Shown here: piece by piece, positions 5,117 to 61,770 of the stretch
How the letters are laid out: each line of letters opens with the position of its first letter
How positions within the stretch are numbered: position 1 is the stretch's first letter
NCBI RefSeq assembly: GCF_900625105.1
Contig: NZ_UYYD01000001.1
Location: forward strand, 434,001-498,000
Direction: 5' to 3'
Source of the DNA: Agathobaculum sp. Marseille-P7918
Lineage (GTDB): Bacteria > Bacillota > Clostridia > Oscillospirales > Butyricicoccaceae
Length of the DNA: 64,000 bases
Program-made: the position numbers and the translations under genes
Notes under the pieces: generated by a model
The model's database searches: none
Told to the model about the DNA's origin: nothing
The model's input: the letters and a program-made list of their open reading frames with translations, nothing else

Positions 5117-5149
5117 AACGCCGGACATTGCGTCCGGCGTTATTTTTTT
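5117..5149. terminator. bidirectional intrinsic terminator
   Basis: Perfect 10-base stem (AACGCCGGAC / GTCCGGCGTT, 5117-5126 and 5132-5141) followed by ATTTTTTT on the plus strand and by TTTTCTTTTT on the minus strand. It separates the flippase and the convergent Rrf2 gene. Confidence 0.9.
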
Positions 5150-5580
5150 CAAATGGAAAAGTCTAACGTCTTGCCGTTGCGGACCAGATCCTCCAACGTC
5201 ACCGAATCCACATACTGATTGACTACATCATACAAGCCGCGCCAGAAATCCAACGTCATGCATTCCTGCGCGCGTGCGCACTCCACAGGATCGTGCTCCA
5301 GGCAAGCCACCGGCACCAAAGCCCCTTCCGTAATGCGCAAAATATCTCCCACGGTATACTCGGCCGGATGCCGGGCCAGCTGATAGCCGCCCTGCGCACC
5401 GCGCGTGGATGTCACAAACCCTGCGCGGGACAGCTGAACGACGATCTGCTCGAGATATTTTGCCGATATTTCCTGCCTCTTGGAAATATCCCGCAACGGG
5501 ATGTAACCGGCTGCATCATGCTGTGCCAAATCGATCATCAGACGAAGCGCATATCTTCCCTTGGTCGAAATCTTCATCAT
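5149..5580 (-). CDS. Rrf2 family transcriptional regulator
   Basis: A 143-residue winged-helix repressor of the Rrf2/IscR family. The N-terminus (MKISTKGRYALRLMIDLA) and the recognition region (GFVTSTRGAQGGYQLAR) are typical. Three cysteines at about residues 93, 101 and 107 lie where IscR-type members bind an iron-sulphur cluster, though the spacing (7 then 5 residues) differs from IscR (5 and 5). The target could be cysteine or Fe-S metabolism, but no such genes are adjacent. Two tandem ATG codons are possible starts. It shares its orientation with the downstream-facing GTPase gene but is separated from it by about 60 bases. Confidence 0.9.
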   Translation of the reverse strand: MMKISTKGRYALRLMIDLAQHDAAGYIPLRDISKRQEISAKYLEQIVVQLSRAGFVTSTRGAQGGYQLARHPAEYTVGDILRITEGALVPVACLEHDPVECARAQECMTLDFWRGLYDVVNQYVDSVTLEDLVRNGKTLDFSI

Positions 5581-5639: not shown

Positions 5640-8210
5640 TCATTCCTGCTGCAAACGTGCAATCACGTCCGCGATATGCTGACTGGCCTGCTCCACTTCC
5701 CATTTCAGTTCCGTGGCGGAAATGCGCTCCGCACCGTGTCCCAGAATGATCATCTGCTCCATGCCATCCGACGTGGCAACGCGCACACGGTGCTTGCGGG
5801 AGAGGTCATAGGATGCCTGTTCAATATACATGTCTGCCGTTTCCGCCTCTCTGGTGTAAACAATATGCAGACCATGCCGTTTTTCGATCGAGCCCATACC
5901 CCCTTTGACTTTGTATGCGTCAAACACCACGATCAGGTGGCATTTGCGCACGCTCTGATAGTTGCTTAAAATATTGACCAGCGCTTCGCGCGCTGCGTTG
6001 ATATCCGCAGCCGCCATATTGCGCAATTCATCCCAGGCAAATATGATATTGTACCCATCCACCAGCAGATAATCGTCCGCGCGGATGCGGGTAACATACA
6101 ACTGCTCGAGCGTTTCCGCCTTCTTGCGGCTCTGCTGGAAGGCTTCGAACCCGCGGTCCCGGATCGGACCGTAGGTGCGCTCAAACAGGGCGCGCAGTTC
6201 TTTGTCATCCTCCAAACCGGATGACGCGGAGGCGCGGCACACCGGTTCCGGGTCGGTCTCTGGTTCCTCCTCCGGCTCGAGCCGAACGCCCGCATCCATA
6301 TGCGCATGCGCGCGCACTTCGTCCCACTTGACCACATAGCCCGCGCCATGCGAACAGAACACCGAGTCCGGCGGGTTGTCCGTATCGTGCTCAGGATCAT
6401 AACCACACTGCTCGATCACCTGCGCGGCATTGTGGCAAGGCGCGTACCCTTCCGGCGTGCACACCAGCCGGCCGCGCCCCTTAGTATAGGCTGCGACCTC
6501 GGTCCAGTAGTTGCGCATCGCAGAAACCGGCGCGGTACCGGTCAGCAGCGTGCCGTCCTCCTGTGCCTCAGGCGGCGCAAACGTCCCTTCCATGCGCTGG
6601 ATATCATTCATGGCACGGCCCACGCACTCCTCCGGCAGCGTCAGCCGGAAGGCATAGTACGGTTCGAGCAGCACGCTCTCCGCCTGCATCAGGCCGTTGC
6701 GCACCGCACGATAAGTCGCTTCGCGGAAATCGCCGCCCTCGGTATGCTTGACATGCGCGCGGCCGGTCAGCAATGTGATCTTGATGTCGGTCACCGGCGC
6801 GCCGGTCAGCACGCCGACATGTGTTTTTTCCGCCAGATGCGTCAGGATCAGGCGCTGCCAGTTAAGGTCGAGCGTATCGACCGGACAAATCGTTGCAAAC
6901 TGCAGCCCGCTGCCGCGCTCGCCCGGCTCGAGCAGCAGATGCACCTCCGCATAATGCCGCAGCGGCTCAAAGTGGCCGATGCCGACCGCAGGCGTGGCGA
7001 TCGTTTCCTTATAAACAATGCTGCCTTCATCAAACGTGACCGCAACGCCGAACCGTTCCGCGATCACGCGGGTCAGGATCTCCAGCTGTACCTCACCCAT
7101 GAGCTGCAAGTGGATCTCGCCCAAACGCTCATTCCACACGACCCGCAGCTGCGGGTCCTCTTCCTCCAGCTGCCGCAGGTCTTTCAGCATGGTATGCGCG
7201 TCATATGACGCCGGGAACTGCACCCGATAATTGAGCACCGGCTCCAATACCGGCGGCAGCGCGCCCGCCGCACTGCCCAATCCCATGCCGGGCTTGGTAT
7301 GGGTCAGGCCGGTCACCGCACAGACCATGCCGCTCTCTGCCAGCTCAACCGTCTGAAATTTTTCACCCGAATACACACGGATCTGGTTGACCTTTTCCTG
7401 CCAGCCGCCGTCCTCTTCTCCCGACAGCAACGCGCGCACCGCGAGCGTGCCACCGGTGATCTTGAGGTACGACAGACGGTTGCCCTGTCCGTCGCGTGTG
7501 ATCTTGAACACGCGCGCGCCGAATGTATCGGCATACGCCGGCTGCTGCGTATAGCGCTCCAGTCCGTCGAGCAGAGCGTCCACGCCTTCCAGCCGCAGTG
7601 CAGACCCGAAATAACACGGAAACACTTTGCGCGCACGAACGAGCGAGGCGATTTGCTCCTGCTCCACACTGCCCGTTTCCAGATAGCGTTCGAGCAGTGC
7701 CTCATCACACATGGCGATCTCCTCCGCCATAGTGTCCGGCTGGTCAAAGGCAACGCAGCCGTCCGACAAGCGCTTTTTCAGTTCCGCCATGCGCGCCTCG
7801 CGCGCATCCGGACGGAGGTCCATCTTATTGACAAACACAAACGTCGGCACATGGTGCCGCTCGAGCAACCGCCACAGGGTCTGCGTATGCGCCTGAACGC
7901 CGTCCGTCCCGCTGACCACCAATACCGCATAGTCCAGCACTTGCAGCGTGCGTTCCATCTCCGCCGAAAAATCCACATGGCCCGGCGTATCGAGCAGGGT
8001 CACCGCAGCCGATGGCAGCGAAAGCTCCGCCTGCTTGGAAAAAACCGTGATGCCCCGTTCTCGCTCGATCGCGAACGTATCCAGGAAGGCATCCTGATGG
8101 TCCACGCGTCCCAGCTTTTTCAGTGCCCCCGTCTGGTACAGCAGCGCCTCGGACAAGGTCGTTTTGCCTGCGTCCACATGCGCCAGAATACCGATGACAA
8201 ATCGTTTCAT
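5640..8210 (-). CDS. TetM-like translational GTPase fused to a Rae1/YacP-type NYN ribonuclease domain
   Basis: An 856-residue protein. Residues 1 to about 640 form an EF-G/TetM-type GTPase: P-loop AHVDAGKTT (10-18), switch region ERERGITV, DTPGH, NKMD, then domains II-V. At domain IV (about residues 483-492) the sequence reads TGRAHVKHTEGG, so the TetM tip motif YSPVS used to displace tetracycline is absent. After an acidic linker (EPEEEPETDPEP), residues about 714-856 match B. subtilis Rae1/YacP: LLVDGYNIIFAW (Asp 718), VVFDAY (Asp 764), TREAETADMYIE and VATSDGMEQ. Rae1 cleaves mRNA in the ribosomal A site. The fusion suggests a factor that enters the A site through its GTPase body and delivers a nuclease there; this is inference. 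Tetracycline resistance is not supported. Confidence 0.88.
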   Translation of the reverse strand: MKRFVIGILAHVDAGKTTLSEALLYQTGALKKLGRVDHQDAFLDTFAIERERGITVFSKQAELSLPSAAVTLLDTPGHVDFSAEMERTLQVLDYAVLVVSGTDGVQAHTQTLWRLLERHHVPTFVFVNKMDLRPDAREARMAELKKRLSDGCVAFDQPDTMAEEIAMCDEALLERYLETGSVEQEQIASLVRARKVFPCYFGSALRLEGVDALLDGLERYTQQPAYADTFGARVFKITRDGQGNRLSYLKITGGTLAVRALLSGEEDGGWQEKVNQIRVYSGEKFQTVELAESGMVCAVTGLTHTKPGMGLGSAAGALPPVLEPVLNYRVQFPASYDAHTMLKDLRQLEEEDPQLRVVWNERLGEIHLQLMGEVQLEILTRVIAERFGVAVTFDEGSIVYKETIATPAVGIGHFEPLRHYAEVHLLLEPGERGSGLQFATICPVDTLDLNWQRLILTHLAEKTHVGVLTGAPVTDIKITLLTGRAHVKHTEGGDFREATYRAVRNGLMQAESVLLEPYYAFRLTLPEECVGRAMNDIQRMEGTFAPPEAQEDGTLLTGTAPVSAMRNYWTEVAAYTKGRGRLVCTPEGYAPCHNAAQVIEQCGYDPEHDTDNPPDSVFCSHGAGYVVKWDEVRAHAHMDAGVRLEPEEEPETDPEPVCRASASSGLEDDKELRALFERTYGPIRDRGFEAFQQSRKKAETLEQLYVTRIRADDYLLVDGYNIIFAWDELRNMAAADINAAREALVNILSNYQSVRKCHLIVVFDAYKVKGGMGSIEKRHGLHIVYTREAETADMYIEQASYDLSRKHRVRVATSDGMEQMIILGHGAERISATELKWEVEQASQHIADVIARLQQE

Positions 8211-8458: not shown

Positions 8459-8674
8459 ATGACTAACACGAAAAATGGTTCGAATCAGGGTATGGTTCCG
8501 GAAGCGCGCGCGGCAATGGATCGCTTTAAGATGGAGGCGGCAGCCGAGGTTGGCGTCAACCTGAAGCAGGGCTATAATGGTGATCTGACTTCTCGTCAGG
8601 CCGGCTCGATCGGCGGTCAGATGGTCAAGAAGATGATCGAATCCTACGAGCAGTCCATGGCAAATCAGGGCTGA
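8459..8674 (+). CDS. alpha/beta-type small acid-soluble spore protein
   Basis: A 71-residue DNA-binding protein that saturates and protects spore DNA. Family hallmarks are the central stretch KMEAAAEVGVNL, which covers the region cut by germination protease, then GYNGDLTSRQAGSIGGQMVKKMIESYE. The ATG at 8459 follows AAAAAGGAGAGAAAAAAC, a strong ribosome binding site. It is a single-gene unit followed by an intrinsic terminator. This is one of the clearest pieces of evidence that the organism forms endospores; expression in the forespore under sigma-G is expected from family knowledge. Confidence 0.95.
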   Translation: MTNTKNGSNQGMVPEARAAMDRFKMEAAAEVGVNLKQGYNGDLTSRQAGSIGGQMVKKMIESYEQSMANQG

Positions 8675-12659: not shown

Positions 12660-13022
12660 TCAGCCCTGCACCGAGCCGAGACCGAAACTGACCGCCAACG
12701 CTTCATCCACATGACGCATCGCTTTCTCGTCCAGCGACCCCATTTTCTCGCGCAGCCGCCGCTTATCCAGCGTACGGATCTGCTCGGTCAGGATGATGGA
12801 ATCCTTGGTCAGGCCGTAATTGGGGGCGCCGAGCGTGATATGCGTCGGCATTTTGGCCTTGTTGATCTGCGATGTAATGGCGGCGGCGATCACGGTCGGG
12901 CTGTACCGGTTGCCTACATTGTTCTGTACGATCAGCACCGGGCGGATACCGCCCTGCTCACTGCCGACCACCGGACTGAGATCGGCATAGTAAATATCTC
13001 CCCGTTTGATGCTGGTATCCAC
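12660..13022 (-). CDS. MazF/PemK (EndoA-type) endoribonuclease toxin
   Basis: A 120-residue protein of the MazF family, sequence-specific mRNA interferases. Family features: N-terminal [31 protein letters not shown] with the conserved Arg and Gly, then THITL and [16 protein letters not shown] with the conserved Glu-Gln-x-Arg. The start is GTG at 13022 with GGAG upstream. In B. subtilis ndoA follows alr with the antitoxin gene ndoAI between them; here alr precedes mazF by 152 bases but no antitoxin frame is visible in the gap or after the gene. A terminator closes the unit. Confidence 0.92.
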
Positions 13023-13174: not shown

Positions 13175-14296
13175 TCAGCCCAAATAAAACCGGGGCACGC
13201 GGCTGCTCGCCGCGCAGATAACTTCGTACGAAATCGTGCCCGCAGCTTCGGCGACATCCTCCGCCGTCCAGACCCCCGGCCCGAACACGGTTACCTCGTC
13301 GCCGCGGTGCACATCCACGCCGTCCGGCACGCGCACCATGCACATATCCATGCAGATGCGGCCGAGCACGGGCGCCTTGCGCCCGCCGAGCACCACATGC
13401 GCCTTGCCCGAACCCGTGCGCAGGAAACCGTCCGCATAACCGATCGAAACCACCGCCACGCGGGTCGGCTCGTCCGTTTCATAGGTGCGGCCATAGCTGA
13501 TTGTGGTGTGCGCCGGGATATCGCGCACTTGCACCACGCGCGCCTTGACCGTCATGGCGGGCCGCAGATCCAGCATGGGCGGCACGGACGTGTCCGGGCG
13601 ATACCCATACAGGATGATGCCCGCGCGCGTCATCGTGCAGTGCATGCTCTCATAGCTCTGGATGGCGCCGCTGTTGGCACAGTGCCGCAGCGGCAGTTCC
13701 AGACCGTGGGAAGCCAAATCATTGCACACATCCGCAAACCGCTGATACTGCAATGCGGTATATGCCTCGCCTTCCGGCACATCGGCAACCGCAAAATGGG
13801 TAAAAATCCCCTCGGAAACCAGCCCCGGCAGCGCGGCGCAAGCCTCAATGCGCTGCACGGTCCGCTCGCGCTCCCACCCCGGGAAGCCAAGGCGGGTCAT
13901 GCCGGTATCCAGTTTATAGTGCACGGTCAGCTTTTCGCCCGTGCGCACCGCCGCATCGCTGAGCAGCTGCGCGGTCTCCTCGTCATACACGGGCGCGGTG
14001 ATATGCTCGCGCGCAATGGTGTCCATATCGGCTTCGTCCACATAACCCAGAATCAGAATGGGCTTTGTGATGCCGTTTTCACGCAGTTCCACCGCTTCCG
14101 GCACGGTTGCCGCCGCGAAATACGGCGCGCCCATCGCTTGCAGACGCTGCGCGACCGGCACGGCGCCGTGTCCGTATGCGTCCGCCTTGACCACGCACAG
14201 CACAGGCGATTTCGCCTGCTGGCAGATCACACGGTAATTGTGTTCGATCGCGCCCAGATCCACTTCGGCCCAGGTGCGGTGTTTGCTCGGTTCCAT
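13175..14296 (-). CDS. alr: alanine racemase
   Basis: A 373-residue PLP enzyme interconverting L- and D-alanine for peptidoglycan and, in spore formers, for control of germination. The PLP-binding lysine is in VVKADAYGHG (Lys 37) and the catalytic tyrosine region reads ISYGRTYETDEP followed by SIGYADGF. Length is normal. It lies 19 bases after a GerS-like lipoprotein gene and upstream of mazF. In C. difficile gerS and alr2 share an operon, so this alr may be a sporulation-linked copy. Confidence 0.96.
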   Translation of the reverse strand: MEPSKHRTWAEVDLGAIEHNYRVICQQAKSPVLCVVKADAYGHGAVPVAQRLQAMGAPYFAAATVPEAVELRENGITKPILILGYVDEADMDTIAREHITAPVYDEETAQLLSDAAVRTGEKLTVHYKLDTGMTRLGFPGWERERTVQRIEACAALPGLVSEGIFTHFAVADVPEGEAYTALQYQRFADVCNDLASHGLELPLRHCANSGAIQSYESMHCTMTRAGIILYGYRPDTSVPPMLDLRPAMTVKARVVQVRDIPAHTTISYGRTYETDEPTRVAVVSIGYADGFLRTGSGKAHVVLGGRKAPVLGRICMDMCMVRVPDGVDVHRGDEVTVFGPGVWTAEDVAEAAGTISYEVICAASSRVPRFYLG

Positions 14297-61407: not shown

Positions 61408-61570
61408 ATTTTTCTCCTTTCCCGCGAAAAACTGCGGATACAAAAACACGCCGTATCCCGATGCATCCCACGCATCAGGCCGGCGCGAAGCGCCCGCCTC
61501 CCCCTTGCCGGAGAGCCGGGCTGACGCACAACCGGCCATCGCTCGTAGCCGTATGCGCTTCCATCCCAAA

Positions 61571-61740
61571 AGGCAGGTATTCTGGCTTGGGCGTCCTCGC
61601 GCGCCGCCGGTCTTCCCGGACCTTCCGATCCAGTGACGTATTCGGCTTCGCGCTCTTCCCTTACAGCGGCGGGACCGCAGAGGAATTGCACCTCTTTCCC
61701 TATTCTCCTGCCGGAGAAAATGGCAGGCACCTTTTGGTAT
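61571..61740 (-). promoter_or_regulatory. cobalamin riboswitch upstream of cbiM
   Basis: Minus strand, 5' to 3': AGGTGCC (61726-61732), AGGGAAAGAGGTGCAATTCC, the B12 box-like GCGGTCCCGCCGCTGTAA, then GTCACTGG and the closing GCCAGAATACCTGCC (61571-61585). Order and spacing are those of the AdoCbl class. A leader of about 160 bases continues to cbiM and holds a GGCGC-TTC-GCGCC hairpin as part of a possible expression platform; I cannot tell transcriptional from translational control. Confidence 0.95.
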
Positions 61741-61770
61741 CCGGTATATCTTGCCGGAAGAAGCAGTTTC

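Follow-up and report, generated by a model that had tools for sequence, protein, structure and literature searches.

The window analysed here, a 64,000-nucleotide stretch of the genome of Agathobaculum sp. Marseille-P7918, includes one open reading frame of 856 amino acids on its minus strand (positions 5640..8210, with an ATG start, the stop codon within this span and no internal stop). Its product joins an EF-G-type GTPase to a C-terminal NYN_YacP/Rae1 domain that carries all four catalytic-type aspartates; all parts of the gene described below lie on the minus strand. An Rrf2-type regulator gene (5149-5580) adjoins it downstream on the same strand, with a terminator-like hairpin behind (5117-5141), and no recurrence of this neighbour stood out at the other loci examined. 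Upstream, a small acid-soluble spore protein gene (8459-8674) is divergently oriented. Elsewhere in the window, a MazF/PemK-like gene adjoins an alanine racemase gene (12660-13022 and 13175-14296, both minus strand). The two Rfam matches of the window, a T-box leader (1507-1748) and a cobalamin riboswitch (61555-61749), both minus, do not lie near the fusion gene, and an RNA leader for it was discarded on that ground; a defence system was likewise set aside, as PADLOC returned no match. Promoter-like sites occurred at the level of shuffled sequence (2 vs 1.8) and terminator-like sites slightly above it (6 vs 3.4). When the flanking open reading frames of 101 loci were clustered, no gene recurred as a partner at more than 11 of them; the larger clusters consisted of the gene itself or of overlapping frames.

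The EF-G-type translational GTPase body (residues 1-600; 6411..8210) carries the motifs LAHVDAGKTTL, ERERGIT, DTPGH and NKMD. A Pfam search assigned GTP_EFTU to residues 5-222 (E 3e-50) and matched EFG_III, EFG_IV and EFG_C (the last at 513-596), with EF-G_D2 slightly under its cut-off (25.7 vs 27). NYN_YacP (PF05991) was found at residues 715-851, scoring 157.3 bits where 24.6 would suffice (E 4e-46). An earlier sequence-only reading of this DNA had described a complete translational GTPase with a C-terminal Rae1-type domain and had proposed such a domain search; the intact frame and the matches to EF-G-type profiles and to NYN_YacP bear this description out. The 50 Foldseek matches listed for the predicted model are EF-G/EF-2-type chains, and a second look at the fold search, with matches that span model residues 1-608 only, is uninformative on the NYN part.

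The same reading had placed the GTPase in the ribosomal-protection (Tet) family, and here our data disagree. Against the NCBIfam Tet models the protein scores far below the cut-offs (NF012153, 418.8 vs 775; NF033148, 267.3 vs 1100), which Tet(M), Tet(O) and a second protein of the same genome pass for their own models; against the EF-G model TIGR00484 it reaches 280.3 bits with a cut-off of 659.4. All five Tet-type sequences aligned (Tet(M), Tet(O), an OtrA-like protein, TetB(P) and the genome's own) have an NPFxA loop and an SPxSTPADF tip, the latter reading SPSTTAADF in the OtrA-like protein. Neither is found in the aligned window protein, which also has the tip without YSPVS that had been noted before, and the QYGHV loop of EF-G, which also has its own kind of tip, is missing as well, GHFEPLRHYAEV standing at that place. 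For the GTPase part, identity lies at 28.7-33.1% with the five Tet-type proteins, at 29.4% with the EF-G of this genome and at 24.5% with EF-G2, and it reaches 46.1-51.1% with four unfused and 53.5-61.0% with two fused relatives; the GTPase part of a Monoglobus protein with an NYN domain (WP_320690501.1) is 57.3% identical. The label "TetM-like" is right for no more than the overall fold and the best generic profile match: the identity to Tet is about that to EF-G. Membership in the Tet ribosomal protection family was rejected on the scores and the two missing tip loops. Judging from profiles and alignments, the GTPase of the fusion is not a Tet protein and belongs to a distinct EF-G-type subfamily. 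Outside the window, the same genome encodes a protein of 644 amino acids (L110; G000:C12:77020-78870) that scores 1285 bits against the cut-off of 1100 for Tet(M/W/O/S) and is probably a real ribosomal protection protein.

Two signatures in domain IV set this subfamily apart. The loop I signature GHFEPLRHYAEV (residues 412-423; 6942..6977) and the tip or loop III signature GRAHVKHTEGGDFR (residues 483-496; 6723..6764), of the form HxKHTEGGDF, are present in fused and unfused relatives and in none of the Tet or EF-G sequences compared. The tip residues H489, T490, G492, G493, D494 and F495 are kept in 67 of 67 fused rows (a second fused set, made up of 66 of 80 loci selected by start motif and a length of 830-960 residues, plus the window protein). 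Directly behind the body, overlapping its end, lies a conserved C-terminal extension of 50 residues (588-637; 6300..6449), which is predicted to be folded (block pLDDT 86-93). The tip columns and the extension are conserved across 51 fused and 18 unfused sequences, in an alignment made without L099, the split L074 and the frame-cut loci L001, L011, L025, L027, L030 and L031; the genome of L030 has no other row in it. Within the extension, Y589, C592, Y604, D609 and S616 occur in all 69 sequences, C619 in 68 and H637 in 66; these counts come from alignment columns, as a strict text pattern overlooked many members. Divergent tips were seen in the fused L082 (KHTEPPDF) and the unfused L103 (HTVGGDF). 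Most unfused relatives terminate within a few residues of H637, whereas the fused ones run on into the linker and the NYN domain. Tet(M), Tet(O), TetB(P) and the Tet-type protein encoded in the same genome have no such extension. The near-invariant C592, D609, C619 and H637 (within 6300-6449) might form a metal site. We define these proteins as the Clostridial HTEGGDF-tip GTPases by GHFEPLRHYAEV, HxKHTEGGDF and an extension with C592, D609, C619 and H637, all of which the window protein has in the comparison of 51 fused and 18 unfused members. L103, an unfused member with the HTVGGDF tip, is encoded on a Ligilactobacillus plasmid and is the sole plasmid member that was read. In total, 44 Ligilactobacillus plasmid records were matched; those listed are from L. 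salivarius and mostly annotated as tetracycline resistance, a label that is probably wrong for these members.

A linker of residues 638-712 (6075..6299) joins the two parts. It is modelled mostly at low confidence, with pLDDT below 50 at 648-668 and 681-710 and a weak helix at 667-680, and among the 67 fused rows it varies from 63 to 142 residues. The linker had been called acidic, which is true of the window protein (25% D/E, 16% K/R) but does not characterise the family, as most of the 67 rows have similar shares of D/E and K/R. A conserved motif, DKELRALFERTYG in the window protein (residues 669-681; 6168..6206), resembles DxELxxIFxRTYG and is kept by most of the 67 rows, with E671 in 96%, Ile at 675 in 96%, T679 in 85% and G681 in 84%; position 675 is Leu in the window protein. 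These are column frequencies, substituted for a strict pattern that matched 29 of the 67 rows only. The motif might serve to bind a partner from the ribosome or from RNA decay. Being long and mostly of low confidence, the linker would allow the nuclease to reach the A site but does not imply that it does so.

The nuclease domain proper occupies residues 713-856 (5643..6074). The C-terminal 145 residues match YacP/Rae1 of Bacillus subtilis (PDB 5mq8, 5mq9) with E 5e-25 over 139 aligned residues. The motifs LLVDGYN, VVFDA, ETAD and ATSD reported from the letters alone are indeed present, and Asp-718 and Asp-764 had been numbered correctly. The four catalytic-type aspartates, D718 (6057..6059), D764 (5919..5921), D793 (5832..5834) and D815 (5766..5768), are invariant in 67 of 67 fused rows in one set and, in the other, in every one of 48 fused and 26 stand-alone domains. 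This latter set, used for the NYN and tail tables, holds 48 of the 51 fused rows, L082, L087 and L094 having been missed by the start pattern and restored for the NYN tree.

At the very C-terminus fused and free domains differ. All 26 free Rae1 proteins end in a LEKxR-like tail that reaches 65-69 residues past the last catalytic-type Asp, counted inclusively. The pattern used is a loose one, applied to the final 14 residues of free proteins and the final 25 of fused ones. It was found in one of 48 fused domains (L097, inside a short tail) and, in the second set, in six of 67: three times in an earlier helix, twice in partial form (L159, L184) and once as a true LEKLRR (L170). The last 25 residues of the window protein hold no such tail, and the protein ends 42 residues from D815, inclusive. 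Altogether 18 of 55 fused proteins, that of the window included, have fewer than 50 residues between this Asp and their end, and at least seven changes between long and short tails are seen on the GTPase tree. In B. subtilis Rae1 residues 162-166 read EKLRR, and R166P is, in the available text of PMC6613710, among the rae1 suppressors classed by its authors as loss of function. Free Rae1 proteins from genomes with the unfused GTPase as well (G145, G189, G336 and G121) retain the tail. The tail is conserved in the free proteins examined and lies outside the Pfam definition of NYN_YacP; on these alignments we file the window protein as a variant with an NYN_YacP domain, not as a typical free Rae1. 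We read the tail loss as docking handed from the tail to the GTPase, a reading drawn largely from one event together with repeated shortening. Such decay after fusion, with its seven or more length changes, suggests a nuclease that depends on its GTPase partner.

Phylogenetic trees of both halves fit one fusion event. In the GTPase tree (79 rows, with SH-aLRT support only), the family separates from four Tet rows at a support of 100; all 55 fused rows fall into one group with a support of 95, which excludes 17 of the 18 unfused rows. Three members inside this group have no NYN part: L168, whose frame breaks off within the extension, L103 from the Ligilactobacillus plasmid, and L176 from a contig filed as Bifidobacterium. 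The latter two have probably lost it. In the NYN tree, a branch with support 100/99.9 separates 52 fused domains and the free L024 from 25 free ones; the fused rows alone as a strict clade are not the best tree, yet this topology was not rejected (p-AU 0.169). L024 (genome G243) is a free NYN gene with the tail kept, coded alone, away from rlmB and with no adjoining GTPase. It may have become detached from a fusion, or it may be related to the domain that entered the fusion.

The survey of fused against stand-alone Rae1 proposed in the sequence-only reading shows that, across the sampled genomes, the fusion substitutes for free Rae1. In the window's genome, which is 99.17% complete, the fused copy is the sole YacP match. 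At E <= 0.001, YacP was matched in 249 of 391 Clostridia genomes, once in 244 and twice in five; the GTPase part was matched in 185 at E <= 1e-60. Sorted into classes by E-value ranges of the YacP and GTPase searches, not by gene-by-gene reading, 131 genomes (about one third) hold a fusion-clade GTPase, and 130 of these have a YacP match; the one that does not, G131, has a GTPase frame of 605 residues. An extra free YacP above the cut-off occurs in just one of the 131 (G330). As for the other genomes with two matches, G133 has two fusions, and in G136, G201 and G242 the second match lies under the cut-off. A YacP domain is present in 119 of the 260 other genomes, some of these being weaker-scoring or contig-cut fusions. 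GTPases in the unfused range occur in 20 genomes, 13 with YacP in a short frame of its own (four of which, G262, G268, G372 and G389, were classed as unfused without a reading of the GTPase) and seven without YacP. In these seven the GTPases were read and are unfused, and a recheck for YacP at E <= 10 in five (G029, G034, G078, G207 and G334) gave nothing over the cut-off. Since the unfused GTPase exists without YacP in seven genomes and together with one in 13, it has an independent function. Another 84 genomes have YacP but no match to the GTPase, and 122 of 391 lack both parts at the thresholds used. A further 34 genomes in the low range are unclassified, 22 of them with YacP, and at least one (G137, with a frame of 937 residues) looks fused. 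In a wider sample of 398 genomes of the phylum, there were 39 GTPase matches at E <= 1e-120; going by frame length only, the 29 at E <= 1e-230 divide into 23 in frames of at least 857 residues and six in frames of 651-674.

Gene neighbourhoods were compared as well. The free rae1 gene of L010 stands in the order mrnC-rlmB-rae1-sigH (names assigned by eye). In the window's genome no rae1 adjoins rlmB, which is followed by a same-strand gene for 775 residues without a Pfam match, and the fusion gene lies away from rlmB.

The architecture is already in print as a sequence observation. The accessible text of Atkinson 2015 (PMC4342817) reports the gain of a YacP-like NYN RNase domain by Tet proteins in ten species of Clostridiales, proposes a resistance mechanism and names an rRNA RNase ability for testing; it also quotes the older prediction of rRNA or tRNA maturation for YacP-type NYN domains. 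For free Rae1, the passages available to us describe an A-site mRNA endonuclease (PMC6613710, PMC12320835) with known cut sites that serve as controls (PMC11780869). S1025, named in PMC11780869, and the bmrCD leader are known targets of Rae1. Among the papers listed by full-text literature searches there was no experimental study of the fusion, in line with the earlier statement that generic database names, here the RefSeq "translation factor GTPase family protein" (WP_320690501.1), exist for it but no known experiment. The accessible part of a review on ribosome protection proteins (PMC8161019) yielded no mention of it, and Condon 2018, by its title on Rae1 distribution, may mention it. Beyond what the consulted portion of Atkinson 2015 (PMC4342817) holds, our analysis adds the replacement of free Rae1, the origin of the fusion, the unfused sister group and the tail loss.

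As the fusion stands in for free Rae1, and both domains and the catalytic-type residues are real, a ribosome-linked nuclease is the natural reading; this much of the original proposal survives, its Tet-family membership does not. On balance, we favour as the best reading an A-site mRNA endonuclease whose docking has passed to a dedicated GTPase, and hold this with moderate confidence. We infer ribosome binding, the A-site location, cleavage, the order of steps and the role of GTP. A Rae1 domain would have been joined, probably once, directly behind the C-terminal extension of a pre-existing non-Tet EF-G-type GTPase, and the fusion would then have supplanted the free rae1 gene. The GTP-bound factor may dock at the GTPase centre of a paused ribosome and place domain IV, with its HxKHTEGGDF tip, in a vacant or blocked A site. 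The flexible linker would next let the nuclease reach and cut the A-site mRNA. GTP hydrolysis would finally free the factor; the ribosome, now on a cut-short message, would be left to tmRNA-type rescue, and the mRNA would decay. We advance more tentatively, as a possibility somewhat short of probable, that the protein is a GTP-timed factor, in which a domain IV tip of its own kind inspects the A site and GTP hydrolysis is coupled to mRNA cleavage, and that its unfused sister may either bring in a nuclease in trans or work on paused ribosomes by itself. A strict view of the GTPase as a delivery device is weakened, since the same GTPase exists unfused and seven of the 20 unfused-range genomes are without YacP. 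Against the favoured reading it also counts that the tail difference goes back mostly to one evolutionary event, with at least one fused protein (L170) still having a true LEKLRR, that no neighbour gene recurs widely, that 122 of the 391 genomes lack both parts, and that the fused NYN rows alone do not form a clade in the best tree.

The alternative that fares best is one of co-localisation only, in which a helper EF-G-type GTPase and a housekeeping Rae1, both ribosomal, act separately and GTP has no part in cleavage. It would accommodate an unfused GTPase with the same tip and extension that also occurs in genomes without YacP, a long linker mostly of low confidence, and the presence of L103 and L176 within the fusion clade without the NYN part. 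The decay of the tail after fusion, which suggests that the nuclease leans on its partner, and the rarity of an extra free copy, found in that one fusion-clade genome only, speak against it, and we regard it as unlikely. Antibiotic resistance of the Tet type, supplemented by a nuclease for rRNA or mRNA, the mechanism suggested in the portion of Atkinson 2015 available (PMC4342817), is highly improbable: a generic Tet model is indeed the best NCBIfam match (418.8 bits), but the protein falls far under the Tet cut-offs and has neither Tet tip loop, a separate protein of the same genome exceeds the Tet cut-off (1285 vs 1100), and 244 of the 249 YacP-bearing genomes have a single YacP match. Similarly remote is rRNA or tRNA maturation, with the GTPase as an assembly factor and the NYN domain trimming rRNA or tRNA, which would agree with the older prediction quoted in the accessible text of PMC4342817 and with the free rae1 beside rlmB and mrnC in L010, but is opposed by experimental work that, in the passages available, puts Rae1 on A-site mRNA (PMC6613710, PMC12320835) and by the position of the fusion away from rlmB in the window's genome.

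The strongest new content of the analysis is that a gene filed as Tet-like seems to be the cell's Rae1 in roughly a third of the sampled Clostridia (131 of 391 genomes), borne by a separate GTPase subfamily. If true, this would remove a misleading resistance label, hint at the way in which Rae1 gets to the A site, and make GTP-coupled cleavage of mRNA on the ribosome open to experiment. A GTP-driven mechanism of message cutting is plausible. The comparison also brings to light an unfused GTPase subfamily that carries a tetracycline-resistance annotation in most of the L. salivarius plasmid records listed.

In comparison with known systems, the fusion has the same architecture as the Clostridial "Tet proteins with NYN domain" described in the available text of Atkinson 2015 (PMC4342817), which were, however, filed as Tet, and shares its GTPase and NYN architecture with the RefSeq "translation factor GTPase family protein" (WP_320690501.1). 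With Tet(M), Tet(O) and TetB(P) it has the EF-G-like domain order in common, and a generic Tet model is its best NCBIfam match; unlike them it is without NPFxA and SPxSTPADF, is 28.7-33.1% identical, and bears a C-terminal extension missing from them. From EF-G it differs by an identity of 29.4%, a replaced QYGHV loop and a score of 280.3 against the cut-off of 659.4. Finally, it belongs with Rae1/YacP of B. subtilis (5mq8/5mq9) to the NYN_YacP family and shares all four aspartates with it, but its NYN domain is carried on a GTPase, has shed the LEKxR-like tail and is encoded away from rlmB.
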